Shown here piece after piece: positions 3,970-54,853 of a stretch of DNA of 64,000 nucleotides. A model generated the notes under the pieces. That model worked only from the letters and a program-made list of their open reading frames with translations, made no database searches and was not told where the DNA came from. The stretch's first letter is position 1; every line of letters begins with the position of its first letter. The position numbers and the translations under genes are program-made. Origin of the DNA: Synechococcus sp. HK01-R (lineage in GTDB: Bacteria > Cyanobacteriota > Cyanobacteriia > PCC-6307 > Cyanobiaceae); assembly GCF_014217855.1 (NCBI RefSeq), contig NZ_CP059059.1, positions 1,984,001 through 2,048,000 of the forward strand, read 5' to 3'.

Positions 3970-5049
3970 TTACCCCCCACAGCAATCAAGGATCGCCTGC
4001 GCCGCAACTGCTGCACCATCGTTGGCAAGGGGACCGTCCTTGGCCGGATGCAGTGGTTGGTCCAATTGCCAATCACCCGTTTCCAGCTGGTGGCGACTCA
4101 GAATCCGATGCCGACCATGACGTTGAAGGCCGTCCATCAAAGCTGTGGCCTCAGCAAAACCGCTGCGCCTCACCACATGCAGACCCACATCACTCGAAAG
4201 GGCCTCGCAGAAACTGCTGTAGCCGGGTTTGCCCAGATGCCGCTCACAGTGGGGAAGAAGATCCAGGGGGCGAACACCCTCCGGTAAGAGCAACACATTC
4301 GAGCAAGCAGCAAGCCGTTCCCGTTCAGAGGCAAGCGCCGGCTCGCTGAGCACAAATCGATGGGATGACCAGCCGCGAAGCAAGCGGTCATCAAGGGCAA
4401 AGCCCAAACCACCGAAGCCGACGAAGACACGAGGCCTCGCATCGGTGGACAAAGCCTGCTCGAAGGACCTCGGGAGGGGCCTCGGTTGGCTCGCTGTCAG
4501 CCCGATGGAGATTTCTCGCAACCCCCAAGGCATCGCCAGCGAAAACGGACAACGCAAAAGCAAATCACCCCTGGAGTAGGCCTCTGCTGCAGCCTGCGCG
4601 TAATCGCTGAAAGCGCCGTCGAGAGGGGCATAAATCTCATCCCATCCGAAATTCGCCATCCAGACCAGCGGAACCCTGAGGCGTTCCGCGAGGGAAGCTG
4701 CCGCTGGTGGCACATCCCCGACAATCAGTACCGGCGAAGACTGAGCTGCGAGCCAAGCCGCTTCAGCGGCAATCTGATCAGGTAGTTCCTCGTGGAGATC
4801 AGCAAGAGCGGCCAGTGTCGCCTCGGGATCCGTTCCGAGGGCATCGGACTGCACCATGCCCACATCCCATCGACAGCGTCGCAACTCCACTGGCAGGCCT
4901 CGAAAGACAAGGCCCAGAAACCTGGGATCCACTGCCGTACTGACCACCAGCCTTGATCCAGGAGAAAGACGGTGCAGCTCCGCAAGTACGGACGCGTGAC
5001 GAGCAGCATGACCAAATCCATGGCTGCTCAGGCAGGAGTAGATCAGCAC
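3970..5049 (-). CDS. glycosyltransferase-like protein (GT-B / MurG-UGT fold)
   Basis: 359 residues. The N-terminus ends in GFGHAARHASVLAEL, the glycine/histidine loop of GT-B transferases. A C-terminal nucleotide-sugar-binding half contains VFVGFGGLGF and LLPEGVRPLDLLPHCERHLGKPGYSSFCEAL, matching the MurG/UGT donor-site pattern (a conserved stretch followed by a G-x-S/T-x-x-E loop). Related proteins in cyanobacteria are annotated as putative glycosyltransferases; donor and acceptor are unknown. It begins inside the end of the upstream metallophosphoesterase gene (7-base overlap), suggesting an operon. Confidence 0.7.
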   Translation of the reverse strand: MLIYSCLSSHGFGHAARHASVLAELHRLSPGSRLVVSTAVDPRFLGLVFRGLPVELRRCRWDVGMVQSDALGTDPEATLAALADLHEELPDQIAAEAAWLAAQSSPVLIVGDVPPAAASLAERLRVPLVWMANFGWDEIYAPLDGAFSDYAQAAAEAYSRGDLLLRCPFSLAMPWGLREISIGLTASQPRPLPRSFEQALSTDARPRVFVGFGGLGFALDDRLLRGWSSHRFVLSEPALASERERLAACSNVLLLPEGVRPLDLLPHCERHLGKPGYSSFCEALSSDVGLHVVRRSGFAEATALMDGLQRHGRHRILSRHQLETGDWQLDQPLHPAKDGPLANDGAAVAAQAILDCCGG

Positions 5050-5963
5050 CCAACCACCTCAGGAGCATTGCGGTGCCAAAGGGTCTCTTCGAACACCAGG
5101 GTGCCGTCGTCTTCATACCAACGGTGGCTGGCATGGCAGAGCTCACATCCGCTGAACTCCACCCAGGACCAATGGGTGAGTGAACGGCCATCAGCATCAA
5201 CGCCCCGCCGCGGGACACAGGCCGCATTGAGATAGGCCGTACCAAGCCGATCCTGAAGGAAGGTGCAACGTTCACCCTGGCCTCCTTTAAGGCGATGGTG
5301 CATATGACCAAACACCACGAGGGGGACCTCGCGTCTCTGTCGGATCCGGTCAAGAGCCAGAGCCAAGTCTTGATCTCCCCAGTCGATCGCAGGGCGCTTC
5401 CAGTCCCGGCCACAGGGACTGGCCGCATCGGACCCCAGGCCCGAGGGACCCGCGTGGGCGAGAACCACGAGGGGACGATCCTGAGGAGCCTGCTCGGAGG
5501 CCTGCACGATTAATTGAGCAGAGTCTTCTAGCTCGATCGGACCGTAGGTGGCGGCCATGGCGCGGGAGAGGTGAAATCCACCCCCGGCGCTACCTGGCCG
5601 CGCACCAAGCACTGATAGGGCTGGTGCCGACCAATTGCGCAAACTCCAGGCGCAGTGACGATCCCCCAGCACCTTGACCTGGCGCTGAAACAACTCGCCG
5701 GTGGCATCTTTGCCCCGATCGTGATTACCAAGAATTACCGCAGTAGGGATTGGCAGAGCGGCAATCGCTTTGACCAAACGCAGATCCCCATCACTGAGGT
5801 CCCCCACAAACAGAACGGCATCCGGCTGAAGCTGGTCTAGAAGTCGGGCGTCAAGATCGTTCCACTGGCCATGCAGATCTCCGGCAATGGCCAGACGCAG
5901 CCTGCGAGGACCAGACGTCTGCACGGGCTGCGATGCAGGCTCTAGCGATGGAGACGCTTGCAA
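5043..5963 (-). CDS. metallophosphoesterase (calcineurin-like, TIGR04168-type)
   Basis: 306 residues with a complete calcineurin-like metal site: IAGDLHGQW (D and H), FVGDLSDGDL (D), ILGNHDRG (N and H), VLAHAGPSG and VFGHMHHRL (histidines). The order matches a cyanobacterial/plant family often placed near photosynthesis genes, but the substrate is unknown. Start is uncertain: the frame allows TTG at 5963, while GTG at 5924, 13 codons later, sits closer to the conserved domain and may be the real one. It overlaps the downstream glycosyltransferase by 7 bases and is divergent from nadA. Confidence 0.8.
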   Translation of the reverse strand: MQASPSLEPASQPVQTSGPRRLRLAIAGDLHGQWNDLDARLLDQLQPDAVLFVGDLSDGDLRLVKAIAALPIPTAVILGNHDRGKDATGELFQRQVKVLGDRHCAWSLRNWSAPALSVLGARPGSAGGGFHLSRAMAATYGPIELEDSAQLIVQASEQAPQDRPLVVLAHAGPSGLGSDAASPCGRDWKRPAIDWGDQDLALALDRIRQRREVPLVVFGHMHHRLKGGQGERCTFLQDRLGTAYLNAACVPRRGVDADGRSLTHWSWVEFSGCELCHASHRWYEDDGTLVFEETLWHRNAPEVVGC

Positions 5964-6006
5964 TGCAGAGAGTGGTGATGCCTAGGCTGTTGCCATCCTG
6001 CCTCAG

Positions 6007-6981
6007 ATGGTCCTGATGACCGCTGTCACTGCCAACTCGAAGGCCCCAACAGCGGTACCGGTTGACCTTGCTGCTGCGATCCAGGATCTGAAGCGGAAAC
6101 GCAATGCCGTCATCCTGGCGCACTACTACCAGGAACCTGAGATTCAGGACATCGCCGACTTCATTGGTGATTCCCTCGAGCTTTCACGTAAAGCCGCTGG
6201 CACCAATGCTGATGTGATCGTCTTCTGCGGCGTCCATTTCATGGCGGAAACCGCGAAGATCCTCAGCCCCCAGAAAACTGTTCTCCTGCCAGATCTGGAC
6301 GCCGGCTGCTCCCTTGCAGATGACTGTCCGGCCGATGCATTTGCTGACTTCCGCGCCCGCCATCCCGACCACATTGTGGTCAGCTACATCAATTGCACCG
6401 CGGCTGTCAAAGCACAAAGCGACCTGATTTGCACAAGCAGCAATGCCGTCGATCTCGTCAGGCAGCTTCCTGCCGATCGACCGATTCTCTTTGCGCCTGA
6501 TCGCAATCTCGGTCGCTGGGTGCAGAAACAGAGCGGCAGGGAACTCACGCTCTGGCCAGGGCGCTGCATCGTGCACGAAACCTTCAGCGAAGAAGCGGTG
6601 CTCAGGCTTCAAATTGAACACCCAGCTGCCGAGGTGATCGCCCATCCTGAATGCCTCGAACCGCTGTTGGATCTTGCTGATTTCATCGGTTCCACCAGCA
6701 AACTGCTCCATCACGCAGAGAGCAGCAGCGCCGAAAGCTTCATCGTTCTCACTGAACCGGGCATCCTCCACCAGATGCAACAACGCATTCCTGGGAAAAC
6801 CTTCCTAGCTGTGCCAGGTCTGGATGGCTGCAGCTGCAATGCCTGCCCTTACATGCGACTGAACACCCTGGAAAAGCTCTGGCGCTGCCTGTCCGTCGGT
6901 GCCCCAGAAATCGAAATGGATGAGGATCTTCGGCTGCGTGCCCTGCAGCCGATTCAACGGATGCTGGAGATGAGCCTCTGA
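6007..6981 (+). CDS. nadA: quinolinate synthase A
   Basis: Condenses iminoaspartate and dihydroxyacetone phosphate to quinolinate in de novo NAD synthesis; an oxygen-sensitive [4Fe-4S] enzyme. 324 residues, the usual length for the short type. The three cluster cysteines are placed as expected: Cys101 in DAGCSLAD, Cys216 in AHPECLEP and Cys280 in CSCNACPYM. Other conserved elements are ILAHYYQ and the [11 protein letters not shown] strand. ATG at 6007 is used; ATG 6016 is equally possible. Its TGA (6979-6981) overlaps the apparent CTG start of the next gene by four bases, so the two may be translationally coupled. Confidence 0.95.
6966..6969 (+). promoter_or_regulatory. Shine-Dalgarno-like GGAG deciding a non-canonical start
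   Basis: GGAG lies 8 bases upstream of CTG 6978, within the last codons of nadA. It supports translation starting at 6978, where no ATG, GTG or TTG is available in frame between the TGA at 6921 and the GTG at 7215. Confidence 0.4.
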
Positions 6982-7982
6982 TTGAACGCACTCCTGAAGG
7001 GCTCTACTGCCACGCGGCAGAAGCCTGGATCGATCCGATTCGACCTGTACGCCGGGCTCTGATTACCCACGCCCATGCCGACCATGCCAGGGCTGGGTGC
7101 GGTGAGTATTTCGCCGTCAACGCCAGTGAAGCGATCCTGCGCGAACGGCTTGGGAGTGGAATCAGGCTGAACACAGTCAGTTACAGGGAACAACGGCGTA
7201 TCGGGACAGTTCTGGTGTCGTTTCACAGCGCAGGACACGTGCTTGGAAGTGCCCAGATCCGTCTTGAGCATGAGGGATGTGTCTGGGTGGTAAGCGGTGA
7301 TTACAAACGCTGCACAGACCCCAGCTGCGAGCCCTTTGAATCCGTGCCCTGCGATGTCTTGATCACTGAGGCAACGTTTGGTCTTCCGATCTACAGGTGG
7401 CGAAGTGGCGAGCAGGTGGCGCATGAGATCCGCGCCTGGTGGATGGGGGAACGATTGAGACCTTCACTCCTGTTCTGCTACGCCTTTGGAAAAGCCCAAC
7501 GGGTGCTGGCGGAACTGAAAGCCATTGGTGTCGACGATGAGGTGCTGCTCCACGGAGCGGTGGAAACGGTGACTCGCCATTACAGGGATGCAGGCATTCC
7601 CATGACGGCCAGCCGTCCTCTGAGCGATCTTCCCCGAAATGCAAACCTGGAAGGTCGCCTCATCCTCGCTCCCCCTTCCGCCCATCGATCCGCTTGGATG
7701 CGCCGCTTCAAAACCCCGCAGACAGCCTTCGCATCTGGTTGGATGGCGGTGCGCGGAGCACGCCGCCGCAGGGGCTATGAACGAGGCTTCGTCCTCAGTG
7801 ACCACGCTGACTGGCCTGGTCTCGTTCAAACCGTGAAGGAAAGCGGTGCCCGTCGTGTCTATGTGACCCATGGACAAAGCGATGTGCTGGCGCGTTACCT
7901 ACGAGACGTCGAGGGACTGGACGCTGAACCGATCGAAGCGCTGCCTGCAGGAAGGGTGAGTAGCGCCGACGAGGGCAACTGA
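6978..7982 (+). CDS. ligase-associated DNA exonuclease (metallo-beta-lactamase fold)
   Basis: About 334 residues from CTG 6978. The metal-binding motif THAHADHA (His31, His33, Asp35, His36) marks an MBL/beta-CASP nuclease. Later conserved parts are [22 protein letters not shown] and [11 protein letters not shown], as in the exonuclease that accompanies ATP-dependent ligase and Lhr-like helicase. The frame is blocked by TGA at 6921. The first standard start (GTG 7215) would remove the metal motif, so translation must begin earlier, at CTG 6978 (which makes a CTGA overlap with the nadA stop) or ATT 6981. Probable role: end processing in a DNA repair operon. A base error creating the odd start cannot be excluded. 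Confidence 0.85.
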
Positions 7983-8012: not shown

Positions 8013-8360
8013 ATGTCGCGTCTCTTCGTGGTCTGTCTGGCCACCAGCCTCGCCATCGCTCCCGCCCTGGCGGCTGACATTGAGGAGATCTCGATCGAGC
8101 GCATCCAAACGGTGATCTTCCCTGCCGATGGAGCTGAGGCCGCCGCCGCGATTTGCAACGGCCTGGCCGATGGAGTGTTGACCCGTGACGGAATCGGCGT
8201 GGATCTCGCCCGCCTTCAGAACGCTCTCGCCACCAGCGGCAACCCGGATCAAGTGAACCGCTACGTCAACGGTTTCAACCAAACGGCGCAGGCACGCCAG
8301 GGCTGCAACATCAGAATCAGCGATCCGCAAAACACTGACCTCTATCAGTGGCAGTACTGA
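8013..8360 (+). CDS. small secreted protein inside the ligase/exonuclease operon
   Basis: 115 residues. Begins with a clear signal peptide (MSRLFVVCLATSLAIAPALA, cleavage after ALA) followed by an acidic, otherwise unrecognised domain with two cysteines (AAAAICNGLADG and QGCNIRIS) that could form a disulfide. ATG 8013 is preferred over the upstream TTG at 7998. It sits 30 bases after the exonuclease gene and 3 bases before the ligase gene on the same strand, so it is probably co-transcribed with DNA repair genes although its product should be exported. Function unknown. Confidence 0.75.
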   Translation: MSRLFVVCLATSLAIAPALAADIEEISIERIQTVIFPADGAEAAAAICNGLADGVLTRDGIGVDLARLQNALATSGNPDQVNRYVNGFNQTAQARQGCNIRISDPQNTDLYQWQY

Positions 8361-8363
8361 TCG

Positions 8364-10073
8364 GTGCAGGCGTTCGCGGACCTCATCGATGACCTGGACG
8401 CCACCAATGGCTCAGGACAGAAGGTCCAACGCATCGCCGCTTATCTCCAGGAACAACCTCCTGAAGATTCCGCCTGGACACTGCTTCTTCTGATCGGTCA
8501 ACGCCGCAGGCGTTTGATCACAGGCCGCCGACTGCGGGATGTGCTTCAGAAGGAGAGCGGCATGCCGTCCTGGCTCTTTGCTGCCTGCCACAGCCAAGTT
8601 GGCGATTCAGCTGAAACCATCAGCCTTCTCTGGCCACAACTTGCAACGGAGCTGCCACGGGACTCACGACCCCTGGGGGCAGAGCTGGAGCCACTCATCC
8701 TCCAGATGAAACACGAGCCCCACCTTCACTGGTGGATGGAGACTCTGCTCCCAACCATCGCAGCCCTTGACGAGACGCTTCAGGCGCAGGCTCTCATCAA
8801 GGTGTGGCACCAACTCGCGCCCGAGCGACACCTGCTGTTGAACAAACTGCTCACCGGCGGCTTCCGGATCGGCGTGGCCAGGGGATTGGTGGTCAAGGCG
8901 ATCGCTCGGGGTTTTGACCTCGAGGAAACGGTGGTCCTCGAACGATTAATGGGTCCCATGGAAGCCACGGTGCCATGGTTTCAACAACTGACGGCTCCGG
9001 TGGTCGACGCTCCCAGCGATCGTGGTGCCGTCCCCTATCCGTTTTTCCTGGCCAGCCCTGCGAAGGTCGACACCCTGCAAAACACCCCTCCCCGGGACTG
9101 GTGGGTGGAACACAAGTGGGATGGCATCCGCGGACAGCTGATTCGGCGACCGTCTGGGGTCTACCTATGGAGCCGAGGGGAGGAACTGATCAACGATCAG
9201 TTCCCGGAGCTGGTGACCATGGCCGAATCCCTCCCAGCCGGAACGGTGCTGGATGGAGAAGTGATCTGCTGGCGAATGAAGGCCAACACACCGATGCCCT
9301 TTAGTGCCCTTCAACGCCGACTTGGACGCCAACAGGTCGGACGGACCCTGCAGGACGAATGTCCAGCCAGCTTTATCGCCTATGACTTGATCGAATCTCA
9401 GGGGGAAGACCTGCGGGCGCGGCCACTCCACGAACGACTGACCCAACTCTGGGCACTTCGTGGCCTGAGCGGGGAAGACGCATGGCGCCTGCGCTGGAGT
9501 GAAGGAGAAGCTTTGCGTGACTGGGAAGATCTCCATGATCTTCGCCAGAACGCCGTTGCAGCTGGGGCGGAAGGCGTAATGCTGAAGCATCGAGAATCGC
9601 CTTACCTCAGCGGGCGCAAACGGGGGCATTGGTGGAAATTCAAGCGTGACCCCATGACGCTCGATGCGGTGCTGATCTACGCCCAGGCGGGGAGCGGCAG
9701 GCGCGCCAATATCTTCACCGACTACACCTTTGCGCTTTGGCAACGCAATGCTGAGGGGGAGGAATCCCATCAACTCGTGACCTTCGCCAAGGCCTACTCA
9801 GGCTTGGATGATCAAGAGATCCTTGAATTGGACCGCTGGATCCGACGCCATACCCGCGAACGGTTTGGGCCCGCAAGAGCGGTTGAACCTGAACTGGTTT
9901 TTGAAATTGGCTTTGAAGGAATTCAACGATCCAAACGTCACAAATGCGGTCTTGCCGTTCGTTTCCCGCGCATCCTGCGTTGGCGAAAGGATCGCCCCGC
10001 AAACAGCGCCGACACGATCAACCGGGCCGAGGAGCTATTGGCTCTTCAACCGCAAGCTGAAGCACAAGCGTGA
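8364..10073 (+). CDS. ATP-dependent DNA ligase (ligase-associated repair operon type)
   Basis: 569 residues; seals nicks using ATP, separate from the NAD-dependent LigA expected elsewhere in the genome. An N-terminal alpha-helical DNA-binding region (about 1-215) precedes the nucleotidyltransferase core with the adenylated lysine at Lys251 in VEHKWDGIRG. Further motifs are LWSRGEEL, VLDGEVICW, AEGVMLKH and HWWKFKRD, then an OB-fold with FEIGFEGIQRS. Start GTG 8364 lies 3 bases after the preceding stop; its TGA overlaps the GTG of the helicase gene as GTGA. Architecture matches the bacterial ligase family found with an exonuclease, a helicase and PdeM. Confidence 0.92.
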   Translation: MQAFADLIDDLDATNGSGQKVQRIAAYLQEQPPEDSAWTLLLLIGQRRRRLITGRRLRDVLQKESGMPSWLFAACHSQVGDSAETISLLWPQLATELPRDSRPLGAELEPLILQMKHEPHLHWWMETLLPTIAALDETLQAQALIKVWHQLAPERHLLLNKLLTGGFRIGVARGLVVKAIARGFDLEETVVLERLMGPMEATVPWFQQLTAPVVDAPSDRGAVPYPFFLASPAKVDTLQNTPPRDWWVEHKWDGIRGQLIRRPSGVYLWSRGEELINDQFPELVTMAESLPAGTVLDGEVICWRMKANTPMPFSALQRRLGRQQVGRTLQDECPASFIAYDLIESQGEDLRARPLHERLTQLWALRGLSGEDAWRLRWSEGEALRDWEDLHDLRQNAVAAGAEGVMLKHRESPYLSGRKRGHWWKFKRDPMTLDAVLIYAQAGSGRRANIFTDYTFALWQRNAEGEESHQLVTFAKAYSGLDDQEILELDRWIRRHTRERFGPARAVEPELVFEIGFEGIQRSKRHKCGLAVRFPRILRWRKDRPANSADTINRAEELLALQPQAEAQA

Positions 10074-47305: not shown

Positions 47306-48409
47306 TCACACCTGAAGCTCAGCACTGAGCAGCTCAGCTGCCTCGGGCTCGAAACCGATCAAGACCAGATCCACCCCGGCACCGGAGGGCGGTCTCCAAG
47401 CCTGTGAGGGGGCAGCTTCAAACCAGCTGTCGATCCTTGGGCCGACCATCTGGACCTGAAGGGGGAGGTTCTTACCCGGCAACCAGATCCTTCCCTTGAG
47501 GCGAACAACCCGATGGTTGCGAACAAAGGACGGTAACCGCTGTTCTAGATCGTCCCTCGAGACCTGACCCTCGAATCGAACCGTGCCACTGACCACCTCC
47601 ACGTGGCTGTGATCGTGATGGTCGTGCTCATGCTCATGCTCATGCTCATGCTCATGCTCATGGTCATGACCGTGGGTCTGACTGTGGGCCTGACTATGGG
47701 AATCGTGCCCAAGGACATCCGAGCCCTCCAGACGTGCTCCGAGCACGAGGGCCGGGTCAACCTCCCCGCGCTGCATCGCCATCAGAGCCGTACCCGGACG
47801 TACCCGCTGGCCGAGTTCGGTTTGGAGCTCGTCAAGTCGGGAGGCCTCAAGGCGATCGGCTCGACTGATCAGCACCTGATCAGCCGCCTGGAGCTGATCG
47901 TTGAACAACTCCTCGATCGAACTCAAGTGGTCGAGGCTGGGATCCTCCTCGCGCTGACGTTCCAGAGCCTCGGGATCCCCAACGGGACTACCAGCCGCAA
48001 GAGCCTCGCCGTCGACCACCGTGACCACACCGTTCACGACCACGCGGGAACGGACTTCTGGCCAAGCCAGCGCCTGTAGCAGAGGTCTTGGCAAGGCAAG
48101 ACCACTGGTTTCCACGACGATCCCATCCAGGCTCTCGGCTCGGGCCAGCAAGAGCTCCATCGTCGGCAAGAAATCGTCTTGCACCGTGCAGCACAGACAA
48201 CCGTTATTGAGCTCGACCAAACGACCTGCCAGCTCATCCTCCGGACAGAAACCGCAGCTGCGAATGAGATCGCCATCGAGGCCGACGGTGCCGAACTCGT
48301 TCACCATCACCGCGAGCCGCTGACCACTGTGGGAGAGCAGATGACGCAAAAGAGTGGTCTTTCCCGCACCGAGAAAGCCTGTGATCACTGTGACCGGTAA
48401 GCGCGCCAT
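47306..48409 (-). CDS. CobW/COG0523 GTP-dependent metallochaperone
   Basis: 367 residues from ATG 48409. P-loop ITGFLGAGKTT (residues 9-19), the family metal motif CLCC (Cys71, 73, 74) in LNNGCLCCTV, and a C-terminal CobW_C domain. A long His/Asp/Glu-rich loop near residue 230 (HGHDHEHEHEH...) would bind zinc, nickel or cobalt. COG0523 proteins deliver metals to target enzymes under limitation; the exact metal cannot be told. The start overlaps the upstream pentapeptide gene stop by one base. Confidence 0.9.
   Translation of the reverse strand: MARLPVTVITGFLGAGKTTLLRHLLSHSGQRLAVMVNEFGTVGLDGDLIRSCGFCPEDELAGRLVELNNGCLCCTVQDDFLPTMELLLARAESLDGIVVETSGLALPRPLLQALAWPEVRSRVVVNGVVTVVDGEALAAGSPVGDPEALERQREEDPSLDHLSSIEELFNDQLQAADQVLISRADRLEASRLDELQTELGQRVRPGTALMAMQRGEVDPALVLGARLEGSDVLGHDSHSQAHSQTHGHDHEHEHEHEHEHEHDHHDHSHVEVVSGTVRFEGQVSRDDLEQRLPSFVRNHRVVRLKGRIWLPGKNLPLQVQMVGPRIDSWFEAAPSQAWRPPSGAGVDLVLIGFEPEAAELLSAELQV
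47625..47660 (+). repeat. six perfect copies of a 6-base repeat (TGCTCA) inside the CobW gene
   Basis: Tandem TGCTCA x6, read on the minus strand as six Glu-His codon pairs in the metal-binding loop. Further imperfect His-rich codons flank it on both sides. Because the unit is in frame, copy-number change would add or remove two residues per step without breaking the gene. Confidence 0.9.
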
Positions 48410-48939
48410 CAGCGGCAACCCAAGCTGTCACGGGTGCTCACACCCGTGCGTTCATTCACACCGCTCGCCCTAGAGCAGAGGGCCTTGAGCTGGGGAAGGT
48501 CAATCACAGCATCTGTGAAATCGGCACCTTCAATCCGAGCATCCGTGAAGCGGCTCTGCATGAGCATGGCGTTCGTCAAGACCGCATTGGAGAGATCAGC
48601 GGCATCGAAACGGCTTGCAAAAGCGACCACATCGGACAAATCAGCCCCCTGAAGATCGGCCCCCTGAAGCAGGGAGGTGTTGATCACAGCGCCCCTGAGA
48701 TCACTGTCAGAAAGATTGACTCCCTGCAGATCAGCCTTGAGGAATTCCTTCTCCTTGAGATCCAGGCCATGCATATCAGGCACGATTTCCTGGACGGCCC
48801 GCTGACCGCGGAGCTCCGGAGCCGTGATCGCCTGAACAGGACGAACCGGTACGAGCAAGAGCACTCCGAACAGCAAAACAACGAATGACAGCGCAAAGCG
48901 CTTCAGGCCCAGGCAACAGGGGCGAGCTGGAGCAGACAT
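48409..48939 (-). CDS. secreted pentapeptide-repeat protein
   Basis: 176 residues. Signal peptide (FVVLLFGVLLLVPVRPVQA), then pentapeptide repeats A(D/N)LxX from about 65 to 145: ADLQGVNLSDSDLRGAV, ADLQGADLSD, ADLSNAVLTNAM, ADFTDAVI. This makes a right-handed quadrilateral beta-helix, exported, probably to the thylakoid lumen or periplasm as in cyanobacterial lumenal RFR proteins. The function is unknown. TGATG overlap with the CobW gene. Confidence 0.85.
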   Translation of the reverse strand: MSAPARPCCLGLKRFALSFVVLLFGVLLLVPVRPVQAITAPELRGQRAVQEIVPDMHGLDLKEKEFLKADLQGVNLSDSDLRGAVINTSLLQGADLQGADLSDVVAFASRFDAADLSNAVLTNAMLMQSRFTDARIEGADFTDAVIDLPQLKALCSRASGVNERTGVSTRDSLGCR

Positions 48940-49028
48940 CGCAGAGAAGGAATCACCGACGTGGTCGCGAAGGACCTGCCGTAGTTTGAGTGGTCACGTT
49001 ATGGCAGTCGTCCGCTAAACCACGCGTC

Positions 49029-53434: not shown

Positions 53435-54853
53435 TCAGCTGAGCCACTCGGTGTGGAAGGTTCCGGGCTTGTCCATACGCTCGTAGGTATGAGAACCAAA
53501 GCAGTCGCGCATGGCCTGCACGAGATTCTGGGGCAGGCGGGCGGTGCGATAGCTGTTGATGTAATCGAGAGTGCTGCTCAGGCATGGCACAGGAATACCG
53601 GCCTCGGCGGCACCTGCCACCACCTGAGCCAGACCGGGCAGACGACGGTTCACCTGCTCAGCGAACCAGGGGTCGATCAGAAGGTTGGCAAGCTGGGGAT
53701 CGGCATTGAAGGCATCCTGGATCCGCTTGAGCAAACGGGCGCGGATGATGCAGCCACCCTTCCAGATCTGCGCGATCGAAGGCATGTGCAAGTTGTAGTT
53801 GTGCTCTGCAGAAGCGATGCGCAACAACTCCATGCCCTGGGCATAACTCGCCATACTCGCCAGCACCATGGCGTCCATCAATGGCGCCATGCCATCCGCC
53901 GGAGTCCCCATCGCGAAGGGCTTGATTGCAGGTCCCTTGAGAATTGGCTCCGCCTTGATGCGCTGATCCTTCATCGAGCTCATCACCCGACCGTTCAGTG
54001 AGGCATAAATCGTTGGCACCGAAGCGCCCATCTGAAGGGCGCTGACCACGGTCCAGAGCCCCGTTCCCTTCTGGCCGGCCTTGTCTTGAATTTTTTCGAC
54101 CAGGTCACTGCCGTCGTCGGGGTCCTTGGTCCGCAGGCACACCTCAGTGATCTCAACGAGATAGGAGGAGAGTTCCTCAGTGCTGTTCCAGTAAGCGAAC
54201 ACATCCGCCATCTGGCTGCCGCTCATGCCGCCGACCCGCTTCATGAGGTCGTACCCCTCAGCCAGGATCTGCTCAATTCCGTACTCAATACCGTTGTGGA
54301 CGGTCTTGACGAAATGGCCGGAACCACCAGGACCGATGTAGGTGACGCAGGGCCCGTCCTCCACCTGGGCGGCCATCTTGCAAACCAGGCTTTCAATCGC
54401 GTCATAGGACGCCTTGGTGCCGCCGGGCATCATGCTCGGACCTTCCAGGGCACCCTTCGCTCCACCGGACACGCCCATGCCGATAAAACCAAAGCTTTTG
54501 CTCTCCAGCTCGGCCACCCGACGCTCGGTGTCGTGGTATTCGGAATTACCACCATCAATCAGAAGATCCCCTTCCTCTAGATAGGGGGAGATCTGTTGGA
54601 TAACGGCATCAACAGGACCACCGGCCTTCACCATCATCAGGATCCGGCGAGGACGCTCCAGCTTGTTCACGAAGTCCTGAAGGTCCGTCGCACCCTGGAT
54701 GTTCTTCCCTGCACCTCGACCAGCCAGAAATTCCTGAGTCTTGGCGTAGGTGCGGTTGTAGACGACGCTGGAGAAGCCGTTGCGCTCGGCATTGAGGACG
54801 AGGTTCTCGCCCATCACACCGAGACCGATCAGACCGAAGTGCGCCTTGGACAT
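53435..54853 (-). CDS. gnd: 6-phosphogluconate dehydrogenase (decarboxylating)
   Basis: Third oxidative pentose phosphate step, yielding ribulose-5-phosphate, CO2 and NADPH. 472 residues from ATG 54853 (the longer frame to 54946 is not needed). NADP site FGLIGLGVMGENLVLN, then DGGNSEYHDTERR, GSGHFVKTVHNGIEYG and KGTGLWTV. Normal length. Upstream of pgl and downstream of glgC in a minus-strand carbon cluster. Confidence 0.95.
   Translation of the reverse strand: MSKAHFGLIGLGVMGENLVLNAERNGFSSVVYNRTYAKTQEFLAGRGAGKNIQGATDLQDFVNKLERPRRILMMVKAGGPVDAVIQQISPYLEEGDLLIDGGNSEYHDTERRVAELESKSFGFIGMGVSGGAKGALEGPSMMPGGTKASYDAIESLVCKMAAQVEDGPCVTYIGPGGSGHFVKTVHNGIEYGIEQILAEGYDLMKRVGGMSGSQMADVFAYWNSTEELSSYLVEITEVCLRTKDPDDGSDLVEKIQDKAGQKGTGLWTVVSALQMGASVPTIYASLNGRVMSSMKDQRIKAEPILKGPAIKPFAMGTPADGMAPLMDAMVLASMASYAQGMELLRIASAEHNYNLHMPSIAQIWKGGCIIRARLLKRIQDAFNADPQLANLLIDPWFAEQVNRRLPGLAQVVAGAAEAGIPVPCLSSTLDYINSYRTARLPQNLVQAMRDCFGSHTYERMDKPGTFHTEWLS

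Follow-up and report, generated by a model that had tools for sequence, protein, structure and literature searches.

Locus organization

The window, which is the whole 64,000-nucleotide stretch of Synechococcus sp. HK01-R DNA analysed here, carries on its plus strand the genes for quinolinate synthase (nadA), a ligase-associated DNA exonuclease and a cisplatin-damage-response ATP-dependent DNA ligase (Table 1). The start of nadA is approximate, with a second in-frame ATG at 6007, and a TIGR04168 metallophosphatase gene (5043-5981, minus strand) is divergent from it. The exonuclease open frame extends from 6924 to 7982. When read from CTG 6978 as residue 1, its product scores well above the curated TIGR04122 cut-off of 325 bits and matches the whole profile, with residues 1-320 aligned to profile positions 1-320 of 326. 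This gene is the single match in the genome (one contig, 2,479,154 bases). A Pfam search of the protein returned no family at E 0.001, and its matches in the PDB, CPSF73-type proteins and RNase TTHA0252, were weak and only partial. The fold is presumably of the metallo-beta-lactamase/beta-CASP type, and we take the THAHADHA motif to be the metal ligand set. The nearby ligase exceeds the TIGR04120 cut-off of 400 bits and is separated from the exonuclease by one small ORF (8013-8360, plus strand). That ORF has by eye a signal-peptide-like N-terminus and no NCBIfam or Pfam match, and the ligase GTG lies 3 nt past its stop.

Table 1. Features at the junction of nadA and the exonuclease gene, in window coordinates.
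Feature	Position	Strand	Evidence or remark
nadA, quinolinate synthase	6016..6981	+	NF006878 464 bits, TIGR00550 376 bits, Pfam NadA
nadA tail, ATG AGC CTC TGA	stop TGA 6979-6981	+	read from sequence
TGA closing the exonuclease frame on the upstream side	6921..6923	+	in frame, 57 nt before CTG
GGAG, Shine-Dalgarno-like, within the nadA coding region	6966..6969	+	spacing to CTG 8 nt
CTG, most likely start codon, forms CTGA with the nadA stop	6978..6980	+	sequence and comparison
ATT, rival start codon, one base in common with the nadA stop	6981..6983	+	
Ligase-associated DNA exonuclease, 334 aa	6978..7982	+	TIGR04122 457.8 bits
THAHADHA metal-binding motif, residues 30-37	7065..7088	+	precedes every usual start codon
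GTG, earliest usual start in the exonuclease frame	7215..7217	+	too late to include THAHADHA
Cisplatin-damage-response ATP-dependent DNA ligase, GTG start	8364..10073	+	NF006701 688 bits, TIGR04120 552 bits

The initial annotation stated that the exonuclease frame contains no ATG, GTG or TTG (here called usual starts) between TGA 6921 and GTG 7215, and the window sequence confirms this. The earliest usual start downstream of CTG 6978 is found at +237, and none stands at or before the conserved N-terminus. That N-terminus and the THAHADHA motif (+87) are both encoded within the start-less interval, as had been claimed for the motif, but its earlier coordinates of 7068-7091 were one codon off. 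Also borne out was the overlap of CTG 6978 with the nadA stop, which together read CTGA; GGAG, a motif of Shine-Dalgarno (SD) type, stands toward the 3' end of nadA, 8 nt ahead of the CTG. With CTG as the start, the four nucleotides 6978-6981 would form a -4 overlap of the NTGA type. If CTG is used, gene callers restricted to ATG, GTG and TTG would truncate or misplace the exonuclease gene; in the window, they would be forced to GTG 7215 or later and the metal-binding motif would be lost.

Distribution of the start-less state

Exonuclease loci were gathered from contigs of named genomes (the best 80 among 415 relatives), from the window's genus group (a match in 29 of 31 genomes), from two other genus groups (6 of 6 and 26 of 34) and from the family (226 of 400), the family loci being places among the matches listed, with group g18 left out. 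In the window's genus group, the two genomes with no exonuclease match at E 0.001 are G012, a single contig of 99% completeness, and G018, of 80% completeness. The window's own entry (L001), a locus missing its N-terminus (L079), one consisting of filler (L233), copies identical over 600 nt, partial loci and the loci L237-L242 from a pattern search were removed. This left 192 distinct loci, three of which (L058, L067 and L189) have less than 300 nt of upstream sequence.

A usual start lies at most 60 nt upstream of residue 1 in 146 of these loci. Residue 1 itself is TTG in 29 and GTG in 10, some of these 39 having another usual start further up; in the first tree, which holds 157 rows of at least 66% identity, the corresponding counts are 19 and 6. 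Altogether, 185 of the 192 loci possess a usual start either as residue 1 itself or no more than 60 nt before it, and seven, the window included, have none. The start-less state is therefore more than chance or a lone error. The other six loci with only CTG are L015 (genome G125), L019 (Synechococcus RCC307, with the same coordinates as G054), L138 (G164), L139 (G318), L083 (G019) and L084 (G003). This state was found in 3 of the 29 gene-bearing genomes of the window's group, in 3 of 6 in the RCC307 group, and, in a second genus group where the G299 sequence is cut, in 1 of the 25 genomes whose N-terminus is complete.

All seven loci lie directly downstream of nadA, and each has an in-frame CTG in the CTGA of nadA. 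This CTG is residue 1 exactly in five of the seven, while L083 and L084 have the in-frame CTGA 6 nt before residue 1, followed by CTG CTG. In the six loci other than the window, a GTG or TTG occurs at +69 or +81, before the metal motif. The window is thus the most stringent of the seven, its first usual start lying beyond that motif. A search of the 400 family genomes for the CTGAT junction pattern gave six matches, five of which are known nadA-exonuclease junctions; the sixth, in G244, is about 11 kb from that genome's own exonuclease and was taken as unrelated.

Start codon and integrity of the gene

The N-terminal codons of the exonuclease are, by pairwise comparison, under purifying selection. 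Over codons 2-79, comparison with the window gives a dN of 0.28 and a dS of 1.63 for L139, 0.22 and 1.42 for L083, 0.26 and 1.67 for L110, 0.37 and 3.12 for L099, and 0.30 and 1.47 for L088. The resulting dN/dS quotients for the first 79 codons, computed by hand from saturated dS values, are 0.12-0.21 in these five comparisons (dS for L019 was not computable). Codons 80-320 give 0.04-0.09 in five comparisons that exclude L139 because of an ambiguous base, so constraint is weaker over the first 79 codons than over the remainder. Amino-acid identity to the window in six comparisons is likewise 60-71% in the first part and 71-86% later. By codon usage alone, the coding signal begins at 7101 and not at 6978. 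A codon-usage scan for other start-less genes among window frames of at least 150 codons gave seven rows, this gene included, and the others were set aside: 48394-48888 and 47549-48079 overlap opposite-strand genes named by eye, 42300-41197 (minus strand) and 54002-54580 (plus strand) were judged antisense by eye from translation alone, and for the frames from 16 and 49990 a usual start is no more than 27 nt away. Long open frames occur on the strands opposite two genes, 48409-48993 (minus; by eye a pentapeptide-like-repeat protein) and 47306-48427 (minus; by eye a CobW-like GTPase).

With a probability of roughly 0.68, we favour the reading that the exonuclease at 6978-7982 is intact and would begin at CTG 6978 by reinitiation coupled to nadA, the CTG being a by-product of the overlap. 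The coupled CTG start proposed in the initial annotation gains support from the sequence comparison, since CTGA, GGAG and the lack of a usual start recur in six other genomes. Ahead of +51, the CTG at residue 1 is the sole near-cognate codon common to all seven loci. ATH codons at +51 and +84 are also shared by the seven, but these lie inside the conserved protein, and in L138 an upstream stop at -33 leaves no near-cognate codon further up. Of the 25 rows in a neighbouring group (SH-aLRT 87), 18 have TTG at the CTG position, 6 have GTG and 1 has CTG; 16 of the 24 TTG or GTG rows have no usual start further up, and eight have one at -39 or beyond. Because CTG is the near-cognate codon common to all seven and the neighbouring-group codon is TTG or GTG, CTG is more likely than ATT as the start. 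An ATT start at 6981-6983 would share the A of the nadA TGA in a -1 overlap resembling TGATG, here TGATT, and would yield a protein without the first residue and with the N-terminus fMet-Glu-Arg-Thr. Such a start is unlikely, and it remains a real rival because a mycobacterial selection with a Shine-Dalgarno sequence placed ATT (9.8%) above CTG, which was not enriched (0.03%), in the portion of that study available (PMC4633059). The codon directly after CTG is ATT in the window and L139 and ATC in L015, L019 and L138, that is, ATT or ATC in five of the seven. It is CTG, not ATH, in L083 and L084, however, and the neighbouring group has its TTG or GTG at the CTG position, with ATH as the second codon. 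In addition, GGAG stands 11 nt from ATT and 8 nt from CTG. CUG complexes are described in the available text of a further study as less stable than those of AUG, GUG and UUG (PMC11497404). A relaxed initiator tRNA was considered and rejected: the customary anticodon arm, with its three G-C pairs, has one match in the genome, in a tRNA-Met, and nothing unusual was seen in this initiator-type tRNA, the one found.

Other explanations were also weighed. Loss of the start, leaving the gene decaying or silent or producing only a short form from an internal start, would fit the missing usual start, the weaker constraint on the first 79 codons, the GTG or TTG at +69 or +81 in six of the seven loci, and the lack of a nuclease match at E 0.001 in 2 of 31 genus-group genomes, one of them listed as 80% complete. 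It is nonetheless improbable given the full-length open frame, the 458-bit family match and the dN/dS of 0.12-0.21 in the first 79 codons; the frame is also kept in the related CTG-only loci L015, L019 and L138, and L083 and L084, between which dS over codons 2-181 is 0.14-0.38 against a dN of at most about 0.025, and in the window the first internal usual start falls after the metal motif. Ribosomal frameshifting out of nadA, giving a NadA-nuclease fusion, could account for overlapping frames without a usual start, and in L083 and L084 the nuclease frame reaches far into nadA before a stop at -144 ends it. This is very unlikely, since by eye the junction (AGCCTCTGA or AGCCGCTGA) has no slippery run, the nuclease frame of L138 is closed 33 nt upstream of the CTG, and the other 185 loci have a usual start. 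Finally, the species is represented here by one assembly, so an ATG or other usual start might have been misread as CTG; the in-frame CTGA and missing usual start in six further loci, Synechococcus RCC307 (L019) among them, reduce the chance of such an error to almost nothing.

Origin of the CTGA junction

In 42 of the 192 loci, among them all seven with only CTG, nadA ends no more than 100 nt before the gene. In 94 loci, no same-strand nadA was seen in the upstream sequence retrieved. The initial annotation had considered an inherited ATG-to-CTG change and suggested comparing the junction across relatives to see if ATGA is ancestral. No in-frame ATGA overlap was found in any of the 42 loci, and the codon in the neighbouring group is TTG or GTG; on these grounds, an ancestral ATGA finds no support and was rejected. 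Among the 42 loci, the in-frame NTGA overlaps take the form CTGA in the seven as well as in L021, L046 and L195, GTGA in L086, L087 and L089, and TTGA in L097. In L021, L086, L087, L089 and L195, a stop closes the frame before the gene, and these five, L046 and L097 all have a usual start nearer the gene or, in L097, at the overlap itself. In L097, the nadA stop forms TTGA with an in-frame TTG at -24, and an ATG is present at -6. This locus is possibly an intermediate between an overlap and a separate start.

The seven loci do not form a single clade. A careful tree was built from 66 rows, namely the 62 in that portion of the first tree where the seven lie and four more chosen by hand. On it, the CTG-only state needs four changes, at least three of which are forced by well-supported branches, and a single clade of the seven is rejected (p-AU 7.7e-6). 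The quick tree of 157 rows likewise needs four changes, two of them forced. Because four changes are needed and a single clade is rejected, the CTGA junction would either have arisen three to four times or be old with repeated loss. The CTG itself probably arose as the genes came to overlap. In a simple route to repeated origin, a deletion would fuse the nadA stop TGA with the TGA within an NTGAT start, as in GTGATT or TTGATC, and the first base of the merged start would then be the last base of nadA, which is usually C, giving CTG. In the 75 other nadA tails whose last codon ends in a fourfold site, that base is C in 55, G in 9, T in 8 and A in 3.

Proposed coupling to nadA translation

The start-less state is confined to loci adjoining nadA (7 of the 42 with nadA within 100 nt and 0 of the 150 others; Fisher p 1.6e-5 with related rows). 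Of 98 distinct nadA tails, all 7 from the CTG-only loci have GGAG at this site, as do 14 of the remaining 91 (p 8e-6, rows related). The motif is partly dictated by the Leu-Glu of NadA, and where NadA has Leu-Glu the counts are 7 of 7 and 14 of 51 (p 3.9e-4, again with related rows); this p becomes about 0.006 when only four lineages are counted, by hand from 14/51. The rows being related and the four-lineage figure being about 0.006, the enrichment of GGAG is suggestive. An SD motif is reported in only about 40% of overlapping gene pairs in Cyanobacteria (PMC6728339, in the part available), and the many cyanobacterial overlaps without one make the weight of GGAG uncertain. The predicted junction hairpin is not significant: its z is -1.5, and 18 of 200 shuffled sequences fold equally well.

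In the favoured reading, a ribosome completing nadA would terminate at UGA 6979-6981, and the ribosome or its small subunit, held near GGAG 6966-6969, would restart one base upstream at the overlapping CUG. This would be termination-reinitiation at a -4 overlap with the ordinary initiator tRNA. Since the restart would follow nadA termination, we infer that nuclease output is tied to nadA translation and is probably low.

A different view of the same junction is that selection keeps CTG as a deliberately poor start that works only with a ribosome terminating from nadA. ATG, GTG or TTG could each arise by a synonymous change in NadA's last codon, yet the five exact 4-nt overlaps found are all CTGA. 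Selection on the C was rejected as an explanation, however, because C already stands in 55 of the 75 other fourfold sites, and its presence in seven related loci is thus by itself no evidence of selection. Retention of CTG by selection is quite doubtful; if true, the translation of an NAD-synthesis gene would set the dosage of a repair nuclease. The locus, together with orthologs that vary in start codon and in distance from nadA, is a natural setting in which to test if an overlap of stop and start makes ribosomes use a start codon that they would otherwise reject.

Comparison with known systems

A CTG start, either of this exonuclease or of a nadA overlap, was not evident from the titles and abstract openings of the open-licence papers listed; in two Corynebacterium papers, CTG appears in the text available only as an allowed setting for finding open frames (PMC3890552, PMC5784534). 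As far as tested, the gene differs from other TIGR04122 exonucleases only in its start codon and nadA overlap, and it shares with them the full-length match from profile position 1 and the TIGR04120 ligase nearby.

The junction resembles the ATGA termination-reinitiation systems with a -4 overlap, as far as these are described in the main text of Huber et al. (2019; PMC6728339), in having the same 4-nt NTGA overlap and an SD-like motif in the upstream gene. It differs in that the start here would be CTG and the coupling is putative. The terms CTG and CTGA do not occur in that main text. The available part of a review gives the -4 spacing generally as NTGA (PMC12548453). Prokaryotic CUG starts are rare: a study of 36 genome triples reports, in the part available, switches to CUG in 2 of 61,358 AUG, 1 of 5,080 GUG and 1 of 2,468 UUG starts (PMC5622118). 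The exonuclease would resemble those cases in having CUG in place of a usual start. In contrast to them, as they are presented there, the state is recurrent at one orthologous gene, apparently in three to four lineages, and all seven of its occurrences overlap nadA.
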